This document shows positions 2,280 to 18,328 of a stretch of DNA of 34,090 bases, one piece after another; positions within the stretch are counted from its first letter, which is position 1, and each line of letters begins with the position of its first letter. Source of the stretch: Bacteroidota bacterium (GTDB lineage: Bacteria > Bacteroidota > Bacteroidia > Chitinophagales > Chitinophagaceae); contig JAKAKY010000003.1 of NCBI GenBank assembly GCA_021824365.1, positions 1 through 34,090 on the forward strand. The letters are read 5' to 3'. The notes under the pieces are model-generated. The model was not told the DNA's origin. It saw only the letters and a program-made list of their open reading frames with translations, and made no database searches. The position numbers and the translations under genes are program-made.

Positions 2280-3788
2280 ATGCACCATATGAAATTGCCT
2301 GTTTTTAATTTAAATACTGAATGGGTGTTGCTTCAAACCATTGCTGCAACTATTTATGAGCAATATGAATTACAGATTAAAGAAGATGCCAAAGAAAATG
2401 TAATACGCTGCAGGAATTTTTTAGATGCAAAAATGCAACGTGCCGATACTGCTTTTTATGGCATTAATACCGGCTTTGGTTATTTGCAAAATGTACAAAT
2501 AGATAAAGCCAAAATTGAACAATTACAATACAATTTGTTGATGTCGCATGCCTGTGGCATGGGTGAAGAAGTGCCGGCGCCTATTGTGAAATTGATGTTA
2601 TTATTGAAAATAAAATCATTAGTGTATGGATATAGTGGTGTACAATGGGCTACCGTTCTACGCTTGGCCGATATGTACAATAATGCTGTTTTGCCGATAG
2701 TCTACACACAAGGCTCATTAGGTGCGTCGGGTGATTTAGCACCATTGAGCCATTTAAGCCTGCCCTTAATTGGATTGGGAGAAGTGAAGTATCAGGGTAA
2801 AACCATGCCTGCCCAACAGGCACTATCCTTATTGGATTGGCAGCCGCTTGCCTTACAAAGCAAAGAAGGCCTTGCCTTAATTAATGGAACGCAGTTCATG
2901 AGTGCATATGGGGTATACTGTATTCATCAATCGCATCGTTTATTAAATTGGGCTAATTTGATTGCCTCAATCTCTTTTGATGCGTTTCATTGTACCACCG
3001 AACCTTTGCAGGCACTTATCCATCAAATCAGGGCACACAGTGGTCAGGTTGCTTGTGCAGACACTTTGCGTAAATATTTAAAAGACAGCTCCATTGCGTT
3101 TCAGAAAAAGGAACAGGTACAAGACCCCTATTCGTTCAGATGTATACCGCAAGTGCATGGAGCTACAGCCGATGCCATACATTTTGTTCAGGAAACTTTT
3201 ACAAGAGAAATTAATTCAGTAACAGATAATCCTAATATTTTTCCGGAAGAAGATGCTATTTTAAGTGGAGGAAATTTTCACGGACAGCCATTGGCGCTGG
3301 GATTAGATTTTATGGCTATTGCCATGAGTGAATTGGCTAATATTAGTGAACGTAGAACTTATCAGTTAATTAGCGGGCAACGGGGCTTGCCTTTGTTTTT
3401 GGTAAAAGACCCGGGTTTAAATAGTGGTTTTATGATTCCTCAATACACTGCTGCAGGCATTGTTAGCGAAAACAAACAATTATGTACACCGGCAAGTGTA
3501 GATAGTATTTCCTCTTCCAACAATCAGGAAGACCATGTGAGCATGGGCGCCAATGCTGCCACCAAATGTTATCGGGTAATACAAAATGTAGAAAAAGTTT
3601 TGGCTATAGAATTGTTAACTGCTGTTCAGGCATTAACCTTCCGTCGTCCGGAAACCAGTTCTCCCAGGATTGAAAAATTGGTTGCCGATTTTAGAAACGA
3701 AGTACCTTTTAATGAAAAAGACAGGGTGCTGCATGATGATATGATGACAACTATTCGTTTTATACAAACGTATCATTTACCGGATTAA
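2280..3788 (+). CDS. hutH: Histidine ammonia-lyase
   Basis: Deaminates L-histidine to urocanate, the first step of histidine breakdown in the cytoplasm. The protein is 502 residues, normal for the family. Ala149-Ser150-Gly151 (in GSLGASGDLAP) forms the MIO electrophile autocatalytically; Tyr60 in FYGINTGFG is the catalytic tyrosine region; the Ser89-His90 pair is the type seen in histidine rather than phenylalanine or tyrosine lyases. SVTDNP and the later QEDHVSMG stretch are also present. The start may be Met1 (2280) or Met4 (2289); a near-consensus TACATTTA at 2264-2271 allows either. hutU, hutI and the last step are not in the window, so the pathway is scattered. The last 12 bp overlap the tail of the convergent PKD gene. 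Confidence 0.95.
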   Translation: MHHMKLPVFNLNTEWVLLQTIAATIYEQYELQIKEDAKENVIRCRNFLDAKMQRADTAFYGINTGFGYLQNVQIDKAKIEQLQYNLLMSHACGMGEEVPAPIVKLMLLLKIKSLVYGYSGVQWATVLRLADMYNNAVLPIVYTQGSLGASGDLAPLSHLSLPLIGLGEVKYQGKTMPAQQALSLLDWQPLALQSKEGLALINGTQFMSAYGVYCIHQSHRLLNWANLIASISFDAFHCTTEPLQALIHQIRAHSGQVACADTLRKYLKDSSIAFQKKEQVQDPYSFRCIPQVHGATADAIHFVQETFTREINSVTDNPNIFPEEDAILSGGNFHGQPLALGLDFMAIAMSELANISERRTYQLISGQRGLPLFLVKDPGLNSGFMIPQYTAAGIVSENKQLCTPASVDSISSSNNQEDHVSMGANAATKCYRVIQNVEKVLAIELLTAVQALTFRRPETSSPRIEKLVADFRNEVPFNEKDRVLHDDMMTTIRFIQTYHLPD

Positions 3789-5489
3789 TACAGTTGTTCC
3801 TTTTAAAGCAAACTTTTCGCCGGTTTGGCTATCGGTATAACTCAACGTCCATATATAGGTGCCACTTGGTTGTGCCAAACCATTTACCGTGCCATCCCAT
3901 TTTTGGCTCCAATCCGTAGTTTGAAAAATAATTTGCCCAAAACGATTATACACTGCAAAACGCAGGTTAATGGCTTTATAAGCATTTAACGGATATAAAT
4001 AATCATTCAAGCCATCTCCGTTAGGTGTAAAGGCAGATGGTACGGCAATATAACAGTTGGGAACCGCTTTAAGTAGTTTGGTATAGGTATTTGTACAACC
4101 TGCTGTATCGGTAATGGTTAATTGAACCGGATAATTAGTGGTTCTGTTATTGTTGGGATAATTTTGTGCAGGCGGCGTTTGTAATCCACTGGTTTGCCCA
4201 TTACCAAAATTCCAATACCATTTGGTAATTAAACCAATACTTGAATCAGTAAAGTTGACGGCATCATTCGGACAAATAAAACCGGGTGATGAGAAAAATG
4301 CTTTTGGTGGATAATTATCTAATACAATGGTTTTTAAAATACTATCAGCACAAACGCTGTTAGCTGCAACTAATTTAATTTGCTTTTGTCCCAGCGTAGC
4401 ATAAATTATAGCCGGGTTTGCATTAGTGCTGGTAGTTACATTATCGAAAGTCCATAACCATGTGGTTGCATTTTGAGCTTGCAAAGTATACTGAACGGTA
4501 TCTTGCCGGCAACCATAATGTATGTTGTAAGCAAAATTGGCTTTTACCAATTGTTGCGACGTAATGGTAAAAGATGATTGAGTACCTAACGGTACCGCAT
4601 TGAGGCAGTTATCTAATAAAGTATTTCCATCAGAGCCCATTAATTGCTGAATACTGTAAATATTTGGCGAAAGTGGTGCATTTAACTGAACAATGATGGA
4701 ATCTGTATCAAAACCGGTATTGCAACCTACACCTGAGGCAGATTGTGCGGTAGCGGTCGGCGAAAGTGAAAAATCGCTTCCATCTGCAGCAATAGACGAG
4801 CATTGAACGGTTTTGTTTAATTTAATATATACTTCTTTACCCCCACAAATACCCGAAGCTTTCAGGTAAGTAGGAATATTAGGATCAGTTATACTGGCGG
4901 TACCACCAGAAAAGGTTAAACTATAACCACTTTGGCTATCGGTAAAATGACTAACCAGCAACAAATAAGTATGCCCCTGAATAATAGCAGGTGGCTTACT
5001 AAACGGGGAAACACCGCCTTGTGCATAGGTAGGGGGTGAAGCACATTGATTAGCAGCAGCGGCAGTATCGGCAGTGCCTGTTAAACCACCAACACCAGAC
5101 CAGTTGCAGGCAACAAAAAGGGATGGGTCGGTAAATACCGTATTGGGATCAACACCTGTTATATCAAATATTTGCCAGTCGTAATCATCACTTAATGTAT
5201 TTGGCGTTATCACAAATCCAAGCGTTCCGGATTGGTAGCAGGTAAATTTATACCAATAGGGATTTTTGTTAGTGGCTATAAATGAATTTGGACCGGAACA
5301 AGGTGGAACAGGAATAGGCGTATTACCACAAATACCAACAGAGCCTTGTGTAAATGTTTTAACGCCACATACCGGAAATGCACTGGCAGGGGTTTGTCCC
5401 TTTACAGAACAAACCGCTTGTGCGCCAATTTTGGTTGGCTGCAGAAAAAATACAAACACACATAAAAAAATATATTTAAGCTGATTCAT
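3777..5489 (-). CDS. Secreted PKD-domain protein with T9SS type B sorting domain
   Basis: A 570-residue exported protein. Residues 1-24 are a signal peptide (hydrophobic FLCVFVFFL, cleavage probably after GAQA). The first 200 residues contain several Cys and a GYSLTFSGGTA strand. A beta-sandwich segment around 205-300 is followed by two PKD-like repeats at about 320-390 (TWLWTFDN) and 395-475 (KWYWNFGNGQ). Residues 480-570 (PSAFTPNGDGLNDYL, YNRFGQIIF, W-DG-G, SGTYIW) are the gliding-motility-type C-terminal domain (TIGR04131-like), which directs export through the type IX system to the cell surface. No enzymatic domain is visible; an adhesin-like or structural surface role is inference. TATTTTGC lies upstream as a possible -7 box with a one-base spacer. 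Confidence 0.88.
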   Translation of the reverse strand: MNQLKYIFLCVFVFFLQPTKIGAQAVCSVKGQTPASAFPVCGVKTFTQGSVGICGNTPIPVPPCSGPNSFIATNKNPYWYKFTCYQSGTLGFVITPNTLSDDYDWQIFDITGVDPNTVFTDPSLFVACNWSGVGGLTGTADTAAAANQCASPPTYAQGGVSPFSKPPAIIQGHTYLLLVSHFTDSQSGYSLTFSGGTASITDPNIPTYLKASGICGGKEVYIKLNKTVQCSSIAADGSDFSLSPTATAQSASGVGCNTGFDTDSIIVQLNAPLSPNIYSIQQLMGSDGNTLLDNCLNAVPLGTQSSFTITSQQLVKANFAYNIHYGCRQDTVQYTLQAQNATTWLWTFDNVTTSTNANPAIIYATLGQKQIKLVAANSVCADSILKTIVLDNYPPKAFFSSPGFICPNDAVNFTDSSIGLITKWYWNFGNGQTSGLQTPPAQNYPNNNRTTNYPVQLTITDTAGCTNTYTKLLKAVPNCYIAVPSAFTPNGDGLNDYLYPLNAYKAINLRFAVYNRFGQIIFQTTDWSQKWDGTVNGLAQPSGTYIWTLSYTDSQTGEKFALKGTTVLIR

Positions 5490-10641: not shown

Positions 10642-12906
10642 TTATGTGGTTTTCGCTTTTTTTGGGAGATTACCGACAATGGGCTCTGTTAAATGCAGTT
10701 GAGCTTTTAATTTTTGTAAATCTTTCTTAAAGGTTTTTAGTTCTTTATTTTGTTGGTGAATAAAGGTATTATCAGATAACTTGCCCATTACAGCTTCCAT
10801 TTCTGCCTCAGAGGTATAGACCATTTTTCGGTAGGGGTTGGTGTAATCTTTTTTTCTTGAGAGAAATATTTGTTCGGTAATCCAAATTTTTGTTAAAAAA
10901 GTTTCATTGAATAATTGTTGCAAAAAAGTAGTATCCATTTTTTGCCAGTCTATATTAAGCAATTCGGTTAAAGCAGCTAAAGCGTGTTTGGTTTTTTCAG
11001 CAGGATATACCTGGCCTTGTTCCTGATAAAACTGGTGCACGTCTTCCCAGGTTTTAATAAAGTTTTTTTTAATTTTCGTTAATAATTCATCAACTGTGGT
11101 TTTTTCCATTAATTGTCCGCCAACATTTATCCATTCTCCTCTTTTAATTTTAGGTAAAGATTTTTTTAAATTTGCAATACTGTTAATTTGAGATGATTTA
11201 ACCCAATTTAATAAATGATTGGTACCATAATAGGTAATCATTTTTTTGTATAAATCATAGGCCTGACAAACTTTTATTACCACAGTTTTGCGTTTGGCAT
11301 TTTCTGCATCCGGTAAAATAATTTCTAATTGTTCAATGGTATTTAAGTCTCTTTGCTCTAACAGTAATTTGCCTTTTTCAATACAGGCAATAGTATCGTT
11401 TTGGTTGTTATTATTTTCTTGAAGGTAATATGCTTTTCCGGTAATGTATTGTAATGTTTCTAAAGCCTGAAACATTTCATTTACGGTATCGGGTGCTAAA
11501 AAATCGTATTCTAAATATTGAATTTTTTCCTGCCGTTTATCTCTGTCAATATATTTCCAGCTGTTTCTGGCTAATGCATACATGTTGTACATAAACCAAT
11601 AACCCGGCATAATCACTAACATATTTTTTTCTATATCCATACTTACCAGCGAGAAGGGTAAAGTAATGTTTAATTCTGCCGGATAATCGCCCTTGGCTAA
11701 AATGGTATAACTGGCAAATTTTGAATTGTGTTTCAAACTAACACATAAACCCGGCCAAAAGCCACGCCCCATTACTATTTCTCCATCTGCACCTCTGGAG
11801 TTGTGGTTGGAACCAATAGTAGCACCGGCTGCAATATTACTTTGCCCCATAAGTAATGCAGCACATAAAAAAGAGTTATTGTGGTGTTGTTCATGTGCCG
11901 GAAAAATCAGCGAGTTCAATACCTCGCAGCAGGAAATTGTGGCATTATTACCCAGGTAAGAGTTAATTAATCGAGCGCCATATTTTAATTGAGAATGCGA
12001 TGCCATGATAAACCGAACTGCCTTTACTCCATAAAATATTCTGCAACCATAACCAATAATACCATTCACCAATTCACAACCCTCACCAATTTGTGTCTGC
12101 CCTTCTTTACCTGAGTTAATGGTTAAATTTTTTAATTTATTGGCTCCCTTAATGTAGGCATCTTCACCAATCCAAACATCTTTTAAAATAGCACAGTTTT
12201 TAATCACTGTTCGGCTGCCCACTTTTCCGTAGTAGCCTCTTTTTTGGTTAAATTGTTTTTCAGTAAATTTTTTAAATTGCTGCAACAGTTTGTAATCATC
12301 TCTGTATTTGCTCCATAAATAAGCATCGCCGGGTAGCATACCATTGAATGGAATGACACTTCTTCCACCATTTTCGTTACAAATTTCCATCCATATTCTA
12401 ATGGCTTCATCTTCTCCTTCTTTCACAATACCATTCCCAAATTTGGCATGGTTAGTTGTTACCATTTCATTGATGTTGACTAAAATACATTCATTGCCAA
12501 TAATAAAATGAGAAAGATAATTTACATTATCAATCACAACATTATCACCAATATCGCAACTGATGATGATGGAGTTGTATAATCCTACAGGAATGGTTAA
12601 ATCGCTGAAATTCAGGCAAACGGGTTCTAGCTTGCCTATTCTTACTAATCCAAAAAATTTACAGTTTTTAACCAATTCAGGATTGAAGGCATCAGAAACA
12701 AGGATATTATTCCAATCATCGCTGGTATTTCTGTTCTTCACCAAAGCCTCAATTTCATAAGCGGTTAAGCGTCTGTATGTTATGCCGCTTCTGTTTTGGG
12801 CATCTCTTAAATAATATTCCTTTTTACCTTTTGGCAAAAACTGTTGCGGAATAAAATGATATCCCAATAGATGCATGGGTATTTTCTGAATATTATTTTC
12901 AGGCAT
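10642..12906 (-). CDS. DUF4954-like protein with left-handed beta-helix region
   Basis: A 754-residue cytoplasmic protein without signal peptide. About residues 100-420 have the spaced Ile/Val/Gly/Asn rhythm of a left-handed beta-helix, as in hexapeptide transferases such as the GlmU C-terminal domain. Two polar patches stand out: HEQHHNNSFL at 338-347 and SNHNSRGADGE at 366-376. The C-terminal 300 residues are charged and helical (DUF6819-like from memory). Length and pattern match the DUF4954 family of Bacteroidetes; function is not established. It starts 26 bp after the glmS stop, so cotranscription is likely. A role in amino-sugar or nucleotide-sugar chemistry is inferred from the fold and neighbour only. 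Confidence 0.85.
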   Translation of the reverse strand: MPENNIQKIPMHLLGYHFIPQQFLPKGKKEYYLRDAQNRSGITYRRLTAYEIEALVKNRNTSDDWNNILVSDAFNPELVKNCKFFGLVRIGKLEPVCLNFSDLTIPVGLYNSIIISCDIGDNVVIDNVNYLSHFIIGNECILVNINEMVTTNHAKFGNGIVKEGEDEAIRIWMEICNENGGRSVIPFNGMLPGDAYLWSKYRDDYKLLQQFKKFTEKQFNQKRGYYGKVGSRTVIKNCAILKDVWIGEDAYIKGANKLKNLTINSGKEGQTQIGEGCELVNGIIGYGCRIFYGVKAVRFIMASHSQLKYGARLINSYLGNNATISCCEVLNSLIFPAHEQHHNNSFLCAALLMGQSNIAAGATIGSNHNSRGADGEIVMGRGFWPGLCVSLKHNSKFASYTILAKGDYPAELNITLPFSLVSMDIEKNMLVIMPGYWFMYNMYALARNSWKYIDRDKRQEKIQYLEYDFLAPDTVNEMFQALETLQYITGKAYYLQENNNNQNDTIACIEKGKLLLEQRDLNTIEQLEIILPDAENAKRKTVVIKVCQAYDLYKKMITYYGTNHLLNWVKSSQINSIANLKKSLPKIKRGEWINVGGQLMEKTTVDELLTKIKKNFIKTWEDVHQFYQEQGQVYPAEKTKHALAALTELLNIDWQKMDTTFLQQLFNETFLTKIWITEQIFLSRKKDYTNPYRKMVYTSEAEMEAVMGKLSDNTFIHQQNKELKTFKKDLQKLKAQLHLTEPIVGNLPKKAKTT

Positions 12907-12932
12907 TTCTTTTCATTTTAGCGTTTAACACA

Positions 12933-14771
12933 TTATTCAACTGTAACACTTTTGGCTAAGTTACGCGGCTTATCTACATCATATCCTTTAGCAACACCCA
13001 CATAATAACTGAGTAATTGTAGTGGTATAACACTTAATAAAGGCGCAACAATTTCATCGGCATCAGGAACAAACATAATATTATCTGCCATGCCGGGTAA
13101 CACATTATCGCCTTCGCTTACCACTGCAACGATGATGCCTTTGCGTGCTTTAATTTCCTGCACATTGCTAATTACTTTTTCATAATACCTGTCTTTTGTA
13201 GCTACAAATACTACAGGTAATGTATTATCCACTAAGGCAATAGGTCCGTGTTTCATTTCAGCAGCCGGATAACCTTCGGCATGTATATAAGAAATTTCTT
13301 TTAGTTTTAATGCACCTTCTAAAGCAATGGGGAAGTTGTATCCGCGTCCTAAAAATAAAAAGTCGTGGGCATCTTTGTACTTTTCTGCAATTCGTTGAAT
13401 ATCAGTAGTGTCTTTTAGAATTTCTCTTACTTTTTCAGGTATGTCATTTAATTCGTGCATCAATTCCATATAGCGTTCATGCGATAAGGTGCCTTTCGCC
13501 AAACCAATTTTAAATGCCATCATGGCTAATACGGCTAACTGTCCGGTAAAAGCTTTTGTACTGGCTACGCCAATTTCGGGGCCAGCATGTGTGTAAGCAC
13601 CTGCATGGCTTAACCGTGCAATGCTACTACCCACTACATTTACAACGCCAAAAATAAACGCACCTTTTTCTTTGGCATTTTCTAATGCCACTAACGTATC
13701 AGCAGTTTCACCACTTTGTGAAATGGCTACAATTACATCGCCCTGGTGTATAATAGGATTTCTATACCTGAATTCACTGGCATATTCTACTTCAACCGGT
13801 ATGCGGCATAATTCTTCAATCATATATTCAGCAATTAAACCTGCATGCCAGCTGGTACCACAGGCAACAATAATAATGCGTTGGGCCTGTGTAAGCGCTT
13901 CAATATGATTTTCAATACCACTCATGATAATTTTACCAACATCAGGCAACAAACGACCACGCAAACAGTCATGAATAGTTTCAGGTTGTTCGTGGATTTC
14001 TTTGAGCATAAAATGATCGTAACCTCCTTTTTCTATGGCAGCTAAATCCATATCCAATTGTGCGATAAATGGCGTTTGTTTTTCATTGCCTAAGTTTTTT
14101 AAAGTAAGCTCATCAGCTTTAACTATGGCAATTTCATAATCGTTAACGTAAACTACTTCTTTGGTGTATTCAATAATGGGAGAGGCATCACTGGCCAAAA
14201 AATGTTCGCCTTTCCCTATACCAATTACTAACGGACTGCCCTTTCTGGCAGCTATGATGGTATCAGGCTCATTTTTATCCACCAATAAAATGCAATAGGC
14301 ACCTACAATTCTTTTTAATGCAATACGAACCGCTTCTTCCAGGCTGCAACAATTGTTTTTTTGAATGTCTTCAATAAAGTTTAATAATACTTCTGTATCG
14401 GTATCGCTGGTAAAATAATAGCCCTTTTTTAATAAATCATTCTTAATGGCTGCGTAATTTTCTATAATACCGTTGTGAATCATGGCCAGATTACCATTAT
14501 TACTCACATGTGGATGTGCGTTTCTATCGTTGGGTTCGCCATGTGTAGCCCAACGGGTGTGCCCAATTCCAATATGCGCATGCACATTCTTGCCCAGCGC
14601 TTCTTCTTCCAATTCAGCAACTCTGCCTTTCTTCTTGTAAACATTCAATTGTCCATTGTCTACTAAGGCAATGCCTGCGCTATCATAACCCCTGTATTCT
14701 AAACGCTTTAAGCCCTTAATAATAACCGGATAGGCTTCTCTTTTTCCGATATAACCAACAATTCCACACAT
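12933..14771 (-). CDS. glmS: Glutamine--fructose-6-phosphate aminotransferase (isomerizing)
   Basis: Makes glucosamine-6-phosphate from fructose-6-phosphate and glutamine, the entry to peptidoglycan and LPS amino sugars. The 612-residue protein begins MCGIVGYIG, exposing Cys2 as glutaminase nucleophile; GHTRWATHGEPNDRNAHPH and the RGYDSAG stretch complete that domain. Two SIS domains follow (CGTSWHAG, SQSGETADT, STKAFTGQ; then EGYPAAEMKHGP), and the chain ends NLAKSVTVE with the Schiff-base lysine. It is the first gene of a five-gene minus-strand run. No glmS ribozyme fold is seen upstream; the 83 bp to the divergent GNAT gene hold only a near-match -7 box, TAAATTCG (14777-14784). Confidence 0.97.
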   Translation of the reverse strand: MCGIVGYIGKREAYPVIIKGLKRLEYRGYDSAGIALVDNGQLNVYKKKGRVAELEEEALGKNVHAHIGIGHTRWATHGEPNDRNAHPHVSNNGNLAMIHNGIIENYAAIKNDLLKKGYYFTSDTDTEVLLNFIEDIQKNNCCSLEEAVRIALKRIVGAYCILLVDKNEPDTIIAARKGSPLVIGIGKGEHFLASDASPIIEYTKEVVYVNDYEIAIVKADELTLKNLGNEKQTPFIAQLDMDLAAIEKGGYDHFMLKEIHEQPETIHDCLRGRLLPDVGKIIMSGIENHIEALTQAQRIIIVACGTSWHAGLIAEYMIEELCRIPVEVEYASEFRYRNPIIHQGDVIVAISQSGETADTLVALENAKEKGAFIFGVVNVVGSSIARLSHAGAYTHAGPEIGVASTKAFTGQLAVLAMMAFKIGLAKGTLSHERYMELMHELNDIPEKVREILKDTTDIQRIAEKYKDAHDFLFLGRGYNFPIALEGALKLKEISYIHAEGYPAAEMKHGPIALVDNTLPVVFVATKDRYYEKVISNVQEIKARKGIIVAVVSEGDNVLPGMADNIMFVPDADEIVAPLLSVIPLQLLSYYVGVAKGYDVDKPRNLAKSVTVE

Positions 14772-14854
14772 AATAACCGAATTTAAGATGAGCCTGCAAT
14801 ATCCTAAATTTTAGCCAAAAAATTTGTATGTTCATGCATAAATACACCATTTAT

Positions 14855-15463
14855 ATGTCATTATCATTTCTATTCACTGATGAAATTGTATTAGAAGATG
14901 AACGCGTAAAACTGCGTAGTTTACAAGCAGATGATGATCTAAACCTGCGTTTTTTTTCGCAGTATGAGCCTGAATTATGGAAATATTCCATACAATCTGC
15001 TGCAGGTGAAGCTAATTTGAAACAATATATTAGTAATGCTTTAGCTGATCGGCATGCTAATCATTCCTATTCTTTTATTGTGTATGACAAAAAGCTGCAT
15101 GAATTTGCAGGGTGTACCCGTTTTTATGATATTCAAAATACACATGCTACTTTGCAATTGGGCTATACCTGGTATGGAAAAAAATTTCAGGGAACAGGTC
15201 TGAATCAACATTGTAAATATGTAATGTTGGCATTTGTTTTTGATACTTTGCAATTTGAACGGGTAGAGGCAAGGGCTGATATATTGAATGAGCAGAGTAT
15301 TGCCGCCATGAAAAAAATTGGATTTATCACGGAAGGGGTTTTACGTAATAATGCATTAAGTGCAAATGGGTATAGAAGAGATTCAATGGTGTTATCCATA
15401 TTAAAAAACGAGTGGATAAATAGGGTGAAAGAAAAGCTGATGTGTATGTGCAAATTGACATAA
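14855..15463 (+). CDS. GNAT family N-acetyltransferase, RimJ/RimL-like
   Basis: A 202-residue acetyl-CoA-dependent acetyltransferase. ERVKLRSLQADD near the N-terminus, IQNTHATLQLGYTWYGKKFQGTG in the middle (acetyl-CoA loop in the QGTG position), VEARADILNEQSIAAMKKIGF and EGVLRNNALSANGYRRDSMV near the end follow the RimJ/RimL subgroup. The chosen ATG (14855) starts just before the first beta strand; ATGs at 14828 and 14834 are in frame and would add 9 or 7 residues. Substrate unknown: subgroup members act on ribosomal proteins, amino acids or antibiotics. It is divergent from glmS and followed by a 246-bp AT-rich gap with no gene that ends in the prfC promoter. Confidence 0.88.
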   Translation: MSLSFLFTDEIVLEDERVKLRSLQADDDLNLRFFSQYEPELWKYSIQSAAGEANLKQYISNALADRHANHSYSFIVYDKKLHEFAGCTRFYDIQNTHATLQLGYTWYGKKFQGTGLNQHCKYVMLAFVFDTLQFERVEARADILNEQSIAAMKKIGFITEGVLRNNALSANGYRRDSMVLSILKNEWINRVKEKLMCMCKLT

Positions 15464-17335: not shown

Positions 17336-18328
17336 ATGAAAGAAACTAAAATTTTAGATGTGATTATGATTGGTGGCGGGCCTATTGGTTTGACATGTGC
17401 TTTAGAAGCAAAAGCCCATGGGCTAAATTATTTAATATTGGAGAAAGGTTGCTTAGTTAATTCATTGTATCACTACCCCATGAACATGACCTTTTTTTCC
17501 ACTTCTGAAAAACTGGAAATAGGAGACATTCCATTTGTAAGTATTGCATCAAAGCCTACCCGTAATGAAGCATTGGAATATTACAGAAGAGTGGCTGTAA
17601 AAGAGCAACTACACATTCATTTATTTGAAAAAGTAGAAGGGGTGACACCATTAGCACAGTATGAACCTGCTGTTTTTGAGGTTAAAACAATTAAAGGCAT
17701 TTATTATGCCAATAACATTGTTGTAGCAACCGGTTTTTATGATATTCCTTTTTTACTAAATGTTCCGGGAGAAGAATTACCAAAAGTTACCCATTATTAT
17801 AAAGACCCGCACTTTTATGCGTTTCAGCAGGTAGTAGTGGTGGGTGCCAACAATTCGGGGGTGGATGCTGCATTAGAAACCTGGCGTAAAGGTGCTACCG
17901 TTACTATGGTAGTCAGAGAAAGCGGGATTGGTGAACGGGTAAAATATTGGGTAAGGCCCGATATTATTAACCGAATTGAAGAAGGCTCAATCAAGGCTTA
18001 TTTTAATTCCTTTATTTCGGCTATTGAACCTCATCAGGTTCATATTCAAACACCGGATGGGCCGGTTACTATTCCCAATCAATGGGTGATTGCCGCCACC
18101 GGTTATCAGCCCGATTTTTCATTTTTGCAGCATCTGGGCATTCAGTTATCGGATGATGGCGTGCAAAAACCCTCATACGATGAAAATACGCATGAAACCA
18201 ATGTGCCGGGCATTTACTTAGCCGGCGTGGTTTGCGGCGGATTTAATACGCACCGGCTGTTCATTGAAAATTCGAGAGAGCATGCCGTTAAAATACTCAG
18301 TCATATAGCTGCAAAGAAGATTTCCTAA
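17336..18328 (+). CDS. ypdA: YpdA-family FAD/NAD(P)H bacillithiol disulfide reductase
   Basis: Expected to reduce oxidised bacillithiol with NADPH and FAD in the cytoplasm. The 330-residue protein has GGGPIG (13-18) for FAD, SLYHYPMNMTFFST (from 43), which is typical of YpdA, GANNSG (170-175) for NADPH, and an ATGYQPDFSFL stretch near the C-terminus. There is no CxxC, which separates it from thioredoxin reductase. In Firmicutes YpdA the FAD loop reads GGGPCG with a conserved Cys; here that position is Ile17. The other visible Cys residues (20, 39) lie elsewhere. It is 39 bp after prfC and probably cotranscribed. Bacillithiol synthesis genes are not in the window, so substrate is by family. 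Confidence 0.88.
   Translation: MKETKILDVIMIGGGPIGLTCALEAKAHGLNYLILEKGCLVNSLYHYPMNMTFFSTSEKLEIGDIPFVSIASKPTRNEALEYYRRVAVKEQLHIHLFEKVEGVTPLAQYEPAVFEVKTIKGIYYANNIVVATGFYDIPFLLNVPGEELPKVTHYYKDPHFYAFQQVVVVGANNSGVDAALETWRKGATVTMVVRESGIGERVKYWVRPDIINRIEEGSIKAYFNSFISAIEPHQVHIQTPDGPVTIPNQWVIAATGYQPDFSFLQHLGIQLSDDGVQKPSYDENTHETNVPGIYLAGVVCGGFNTHRLFIENSREHAVKILSHIAAKKIS

Follow-up and report, generated by a model that had tools for sequence, protein, structure and literature searches.

A DUF4954 protein beside glmS as a candidate amino-sugar-phosphate N-acetyltransferase of Bacteroidota

The locus and the DUF4954 protein

The subject of this work is a gene for a protein of the DUF4954 family, placed directly after glmS in a genomic stretch of 34,090 nucleotides (the whole of which we call the window) from a member of the Chitinophagaceae, Bacteroidota (assembly GCA_021824365.1, contig JAKAKY010000003.1), and the possible relation of this family to the enzymes of glucosamine 6-phosphate (GlcN-6-P). 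The reading frames and the spacing between them are exactly those given in the first-pass annotation, which had been made from the letters of the window:

10642..12906, minus strand: gene of the long form of DUF4954 with DUF6819, 754 amino acids (open reading frame; PF16314, 193.9 bits, cut-off 26.2; PF20683, 28.8 bits, cut-off 23.5), a predicted monofunctional amino-sugar-phosphate N-acetyltransferase
12907..12932, minus strand: gap of 26 bp between glmS and the DUF4954 gene (from the coordinates)
12933..14771, minus strand: glmS, glutamine--fructose-6-phosphate transaminase (isomerizing), 612 amino acids (TIGR01135, 825 bits, cut-off 418; SIS and GATase domains)

The DUF4954 gene is the sole match above the PF16314 cut-off in its own genome. 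Its product is 89% identical to a protein of Hydrotalea flava and 82% to one of H. sandarakina, which makes the source a Hydrotalea-like bacterium. Two families of hexapeptide beta-helix proteins, LbH_EIF2B and Hexapep_GlmU, match the protein below their cut-offs (the latter with 21.8 bits under a cut-off of 23.3), so that the beta-helix rhythm noticed at first pass is recovered as a sub-threshold hexapeptide signal. Because the NCBIfam search returned no family at E <= 0.001 and Hexapep_GlmU remains under its cut-off, we do not class the protein as GlmU; neither TIGR01173 nor TIGR03991, which stand for the whole protein with both halves, identifies it. AlphaFold2 models of the full length and of a cut piece were built from an alignment of 71 close relatives, and together with the Pfam matches they divide the protein in two:

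11602..12699, minus strand: beta-helix part, residues ~70-435, with limits that are an estimate (sub-threshold hexapeptide Pfam matches over residues 270-325 and 310-364; strands in low-confidence models)
10687..11598, minus strand: C-terminal helical part, residues ~437-740, including DUF6819 at residues 582-726 (PF20683 match; predicted local distance difference test, pLDDT, mostly >80 in the full model)

The helical part gave no fold match at E <= 0.001, and a search of solved structures by sequence returned no convincing relative of the protein. The literature that names DUF4954, in the parts accessible to us, lists it for a Treponema pallidum gene and as a domain in sh2 orthologues and assigns it no function; DUF6819 was not mentioned in the literature searched, and in that on GlmU in Bacteroides and Treponema nothing was found on the DUF4954 gene.

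Two forms of the family and their neighbours

DUF4954 scores above the cut-off in 86 of 117 Chitinophagaceae genomes, always in a single copy, and is absent from the other 31; in the class it was found in 26 of 395 genomes and in a wider sample of the phylum in 13 of 198. The Pfam model distinguishes a short form of ~660 amino acids (~550-800 bits) from a long one of ~740 (~170-213 bits), to which the protein of the window belongs. The long form is a separate branch of DUF4954, 23-25% identical to two short forms, and the profiles of both forms match over almost the entire length (E 1.2e-61).

The pairing of the long form with glmS was analysed in 80 relatives from named genome contigs. In 63 of them glmS lies at most ~600 bp upstream of DUF4954, in 4 it is found 1.8-3.8 kb upstream, in 11 it is not seen in the available stretch (about 1 kb only in two of these), and the 2 remaining have less than 400 bp of upstream sequence. 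Each of 15 other genes of the window accompanies DUF4954 in 3 or fewer of the same 80 relatives, and general synteny was therefore rejected as the cause of the pairing. The gap between the two genes in the 63 loci ranges from -5 to 580 bp with a median of 56, which fits a single transcript; from gene spacing alone, glmS and the DUF4954 gene look like parts of one. In a larger set of 128 loci, in which some genomes are counted twice owing to an overlap of two collections, 120 hold the family. Of these, 92 have glmS directly upstream (<400 bp) and 7 have it at a greater distance on that side; it is not seen in 19, among which are two short-form and two third-type loci (2 were untestable). The adjacency occurs in four families of Bacteroidia, namely Chitinophagaceae, f2 (L013), f3 (L010, L210) and f52 (L212-L214), and in the last of them the adjacent glmS itself is just 55% identical.

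The short form has another companion. In the order to which genome G120 belongs it lies within four genes of nagB in 14 of 18 larger stretches, or in 15 of 18 if one counts the nagB of L180, which gene calling had missed and which was found only by tblastn (as L136). The nagB products concerned score 432-437 bits with TIGR00502, and in family f95, too, a short form (L222) has nagB as its neighbour. Since the long form adjoins glmS and the short form is found near nagB, two homologous subfamilies of DUF4954 are tied to two different enzymes of one metabolite, GlcN-6-P. The specific pairing with glmS together with the nagB link led us to reject the explanation that DUF4954 is a generic beta-helix protein unrelated to amino sugars.

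Frequent companions of the short form in the order of G120 are also an acyl carrier protein, an HMGL-like synthase and an acyl-CoA synthetase; in L181, L182, L189 and similar loci an NDP-forming acyl-CoA synthetase, nagB and the short DUF4954 gene make up a cluster, sometimes with the acyl carrier protein, the HMGL-like synthase or a second nagB. Upstream of the nagB-DUF4954 pair of L178, at 11926-14280 of that locus, a 784-residue protein is encoded which is weakly like the NagB/PIG-L type (PRK02122, 198 bits, cut-off 384) and has no Pfam match at 1e-6. The long form of L198, which has no adjoining glmS, is preceded by the gene of a NagB/PIG-L fusion (PRK02122, 999 bits), one more neighbour of the GlcN-6-P type.

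Relation of DUF4954 to GlmU

The relation of the family to GlmU was followed in the 98 genomes of the order of G120, for which the results of DUF4954 and TIGR03991 searches were crossed, TIGR03991 being the GlmU model for Bacteroidota. GlmU is absent from all 7 genomes with the long form, from 11 of the 22 that have just the short form and from 4 of the 69 without DUF4954; G380, although above the DUF4954 cut-off, was counted as negative, its match being a hexapeptide stretch of an 866-residue protein. Fisher tests of GlmU absence give p values of 7e-9 for any form, 1.5e-7 for the long form against none and 1.2e-5 for the short form against none. With permutation within families 10.0 joint cases are expected, and the 18 observed were reached in 0 of 20000 trials; with genera collapsed p is 6e-4. 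Both genera of mixed long-form state agree with the exclusion: in g66 the five long-form genomes all lack GlmU and the one without the long form has it, and in g42 one long-form genome lacks it and two without the long form have it. Incompleteness of genomes would produce the opposite association.

The uridylyltransferase half of GlmU behaves differently from the whole. A stand-alone N-half (E <1e-68, covering profile residues 2 to ~240-245 of 452, with one reaching 293) was found in 29 of 30 tested genomes of this order, including 6 of the 7 with the long form and excepting only the long-form G336, in a test which covered only a minority of the GlmU-less short-form genomes, G351 among them. 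As 6 of 7 long-form genomes keep this half, it is the acetyltransferase half that is lost. Most of the 29 genomes (L293-L304 and others) also carry a separate TIGR03991 GlmU.

The class sample points in the same direction. Among 339 well-assembled genomes TIGR03991 (E <= 1e-45) is absent in 16, that is, in 10 of 26 with DUF4954 versus 6 of 313 without it; the ten all have the short form, and eight of them are blank at 1e-20 as well. Bacteroides ihuae, the only one of 14 named controls above the DUF4954 cut-off, is also the only control without a TIGR01173 match at E <= 1e-12, and at that threshold it has no TIGR03991 match either (a weak one appears at 0.001). According to the accessible part of one paper, Tannerella forsythia lacks both glmS and glmU.

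A resemblance to GlmU concerns two polar patches, described at first pass as conserved-looking and as a possible active site:

11866..11895, minus strand: patch 1, HEQHHNNSFL, residues 338-347, containing His342, the candidate catalytic residue (conservation; profile alignment to the GlmU His in two of three comparisons)
11779..11811, minus strand: patch 2, SNHNSRGADGE, residues 366-376, including Asn367, which its spacing places opposite the second Asn of GlmU (conservation)

The conservation is confirmed: in an alignment of 71 proteins, in which that of the window is joined by 70 relatives at 60-89% identity, patch 1 is invariant at 10 of 10 residues and patch 2 at 9 of 11. A survey of 155 distinct DUF4954 proteins (119 long, 34 short and 2 of a third type) found the Glu328, His342 and Asn357 of the window protein in every protein with a letter there, namely all 119 long, all 33 short and both third-type ones. 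In 20 short forms E276, H290, N304 and N313 are invariant, as is SNH, and follow one another in steps of 14, 14 and 9; the same steps separate E242, H256, N270 (invariant) and N279 (nearly so) of Bacteroidota GlmU and are seen again in the solved Sulfolobus homologue 2ggo. The steps of the long form are 14, 15 and 10, shifted by +1 and +1 relative to GlmU. When 117 conserved residues of the short form were shuffled, 1 of 20000 trials reproduced the set, a post hoc figure, because the motif had been seen before the test. Two profile comparisons with GlmU (E 6.7e-5 and 1.9e-4) both align His342 with the GlmU His. The residues of the site correspond to Glu349, His363, Asn377 and Asn386 of E. coli GlmU.

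The third, distant type of DUF4954 (L014 and L022, the same as L160 and L161) comes from GC-rich genomes and retains the H, N and SNH residues; a Gfo/Idh oxidoreductase with a twin-arginine-like start precedes it in L160.

A possible acetylation function and its alternatives

From the observed neighbourhoods, phyletic exclusion, conservation and polar-residue spacing we infer, as the reading to which we give somewhat more than even credence, that DUF4954 is a monofunctional N-acetyltransferase for GlcN-6-P or glucosamine 1-phosphate (GlcN-1-P) which replaces half of GlmU. It would explain the link to glmS, the link to nagB, the exclusion of GlmU with the uridylyltransferase half kept and the Glu-His-Asn set, and the phyletic exclusion is the strongest evidence for it. 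GlmS would make GlcN-6-P, whose amino group DUF4954, as a protein of the left-handed-beta-helix type with His342 as the predicted catalytic residue, would acetylate with acetyl-CoA; alternatively, it would act on GlcN-1-P after the mutase. In this way it would supply the step of the GlmU C-terminal half in the synthesis of UDP-N-acetylglucosamine (UDP-GlcNAc), and a separate uridylyltransferase would complete the product. The routes to peptidoglycan and to lipopolysaccharide both start from UDP-GlcNAc. The first-pass suggestion of a missing step or a control point in amino-sugar metabolism gains support as to the missing step from the near-exclusion of GlmU and the nagB link, but in place of the control point we propose an enzyme of the acetylation step.

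The acetyltransferase half of GlmU (TIGR03991, alt_bact_glmU; Sulfolobus 2ggo and 5z09) resembles DUF4954 in its hexapeptide repeats, in the spacing of conserved Glu, His, Asn and Asn (exactly in the short form, nearly in the long one), in being tied to the supply of GlcN-6-P and in its complementary phyletic occurrence. Unlike GlmU, DUF4954 has no nucleotidyltransferase half by Pfam and possesses an N-terminal extension and a large helical C-terminal part, and the similarity of the two is at the level of profiles only (E 5e-6 to 2e-4).

The neighbours glmS and nagB, both of them genes for GlcN-6-P enzymes, favour GlcN-6-P over GlcN-1-P as the substrate. A bolder proposal, possible though doubtful in our view, is that DUF4954 is the missing GlcN-6-P N-acetyltransferase of Bacteroides-like and other GlmU-less lineages, in which UDP-GlcNAc would be made in the eukaryotic order, with acetylation of GlcN-6-P first, then the mutase and then the uridylyltransferase, by a beta-helix enzyme and not a GNAT one. 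Eukaryotic GNA1, a GlcN-6-P N-acetyltransferase with the GNAT fold, unrelated to the beta-helix, would share its reaction with DUF4954, provided that the latter acts on GlcN-6-P. In the GlmU-less genomes, Bacteroides ihuae included, the GlmU models used do not reveal which enzyme acetylates glucosamine phosphate. If the acetyltransferase function is true, a gap in a core pathway would be closed, the DUF4954 family would gain a function and a target specific to these bacteria would appear, along with a case in which one half of a bifunctional enzyme is replaced and the other half stays.

Several results, set out here with the alternatives on which they bear, weigh against an acetyltransferase that stands in for GlmU. 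The exclusion holds in the order of G120 and not within Chitinophagaceae, the family of the window: TIGR03991 matches all 117 Chitinophagaceae genomes, above its cut-off in 112, and 33 aligned GlmUs, drawn from both of the types described below, all carry the acetyltransferase His. GlmU being kept there with its His, DUF4954 has no obvious gap to fill in this family, and the supposition that GlmU had lost its acetyltransferase in DUF4954-bearing members was dropped on the evidence of the same alignment. The 24 top TIGR03991 scores (397-452 bits) all come from Chitinophagaceae without DUF4954 and bearers do not exceed 377 bits; 7 genomes without DUF4954 have a lower-scoring or fragmentary GlmU (for ten genomes the lack of DUF4954 was deduced by elimination). 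In a sample of 20 and 20 GlmU sequences from both groups of Chitinophagaceae and 19 from other families GlmU falls into two types, one of which occurs in 26 of 27 bearers of the long form versus 3 of 32 others. The swap of type amounts to few events on the tree, and among 4 independent pairs 1 agrees, 0 disagree and 3 are neutral, for which reason the association counts little. Chitinophagaceae may use both GlmU and DUF4954.

The GlmU kept by Chitinophagaceae with DUF4954 suits a view that we hold to be unlikely, by which DUF4954 is the same kind of acetyltransferase, consistent with its hexapeptide signal and conserved polar site, and acts on another amino sugar derived from GlcN-6-P or its products, for instance an envelope sugar, the loss of GlmU having some other cause. 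The single copy of the long form and its absence from 31 of 117 Chitinophagaceae genomes are in keeping with this, but it leaves unexplained why, in the order of G120, all 7 genomes with the long form have lost GlmU and the uridylyltransferase half has been kept.

The proposed active site is also open to objections. The short-form profile compared with GlmU (E 5.2e-6) aligns the Asn pair and places a 20-residue gap over the His, and a weak match to the solved GlmU 2v0h (E 0.061) uses a different register again. More than one register is available when hexapeptide proteins are aligned, and that of the His is ambiguous for the short form. For the first-pass idea of an active site there are thus a spacing equal to that of the GlmU acetyltransferase site in the short form and a His register shared by two of three profile comparisons. 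For Lys351 and Tyr366 of GlmU (E. coli numbering) DUF4954 has no evident counterpart. Both models are of low confidence exactly over the patches, with pLDDT <50 almost throughout residues 292-389 in the full model and at residues equal to 335-395 in the cut piece, and fold searches with both gave no match at E <= 0.001. In ApmA, a beta-helix enzyme, a change of the His-to-Ala type kept resistance within 2-fold, according to the accessible part of the source (PMC7885111). Instead of an enzyme, DUF4954 might be a sensor or a scaffold acting at the node of GlcN-6-P, binding GlmS, NagB or a sugar phosphate and tuning the flux, with the beta-helix and the helical part serving for binding and assembly. 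The large helical part without known relatives would suit such a role, and so would the pairing with the enzyme that makes GlcN-6-P as well as with the one that degrades it, a role that we nevertheless consider rather unlikely, given the invariant Glu-His-Asn set with GlmU-site spacing and the fact that a regulator would not substitute for an acetyltransferase.

The exclusion has its own irregularities. No significance is reached when the permutation is confined to genera, few of which are mixed (6178 of 20000); in genus g243 the case is reversed, the short-form G390 having GlmU and the DUF4954-less G389 lacking it; in the order of G120 GlmU is kept by 11 genomes with the short form, and 4 genomes have neither GlmU nor DUF4954. 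Elsewhere, 11 genomes of family f79 show weak GlmU matches and no DUF4954, G535 of f51 has the long form with an ordinary GlmU, and G408 of f52, which has no DUF4954, shares the odd GlmU of its relatives. The neighbourhoods vary too. Adjacency to glmS extends beyond close relatives and is specific but is not phylum-wide: none of the 7 long-form loci in the order of G120 shows it, nor does L215 of f51. Ten other short-form loci of the class have no nagB nearby, seven of them having an HflX-like gene (named by eye) upstream, and in the families with the short form and without GlmU the gene follows hflX-like genes, not nagB. A further alternative is that the neighbour links are an operon convenience and that the exclusion follows lineage, with no role of DUF4954 in UDP-GlcNAc synthesis, as the within-genus permutation and the few changes of GlmU type would allow; we find it improbable in view of the family-stratified permutation, the agreement of both genera with mixed long-form state and the independence of the nagB and glmS links.

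Another acetyltransferase gene stands on the other side of glmS and lies outside the proposal for DUF4954:

14828..15463, plus strand: GNAT acetyltransferase, divergent from glmS (PF13302, 67.2 bits), a possible alternative acetyltransferase

A divergent GNAT gene of this kind (PF13302) also flanks glmS at 57-257 bp in 18 of 67 relative loci holding glmS, a further point against DUF4954 as the acetylating enzyme. That in Chitinophagaceae it is this GNAT protein that acetylates at the glmS locus, DUF4954 doing something else, seems very improbable, because, its GNAT domain and position notwithstanding, it is far less constant than DUF4954 (18 of 67 versus 63 of 80) and what it matches in NCBIfam, below the cut-offs, are acetyltransferases of proteins and of spermidine.

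Elsewhere in the window, positions 17336-18328 encode a YpdA-type putative bacillithiol disulfide reductase (TIGR04018, 467 bits), and positions 2280-3788 an aromatic amino acid lyase (PF00221, 621 bits) which adjoins a CHU_C-tagged PKD protein (3777-5489).

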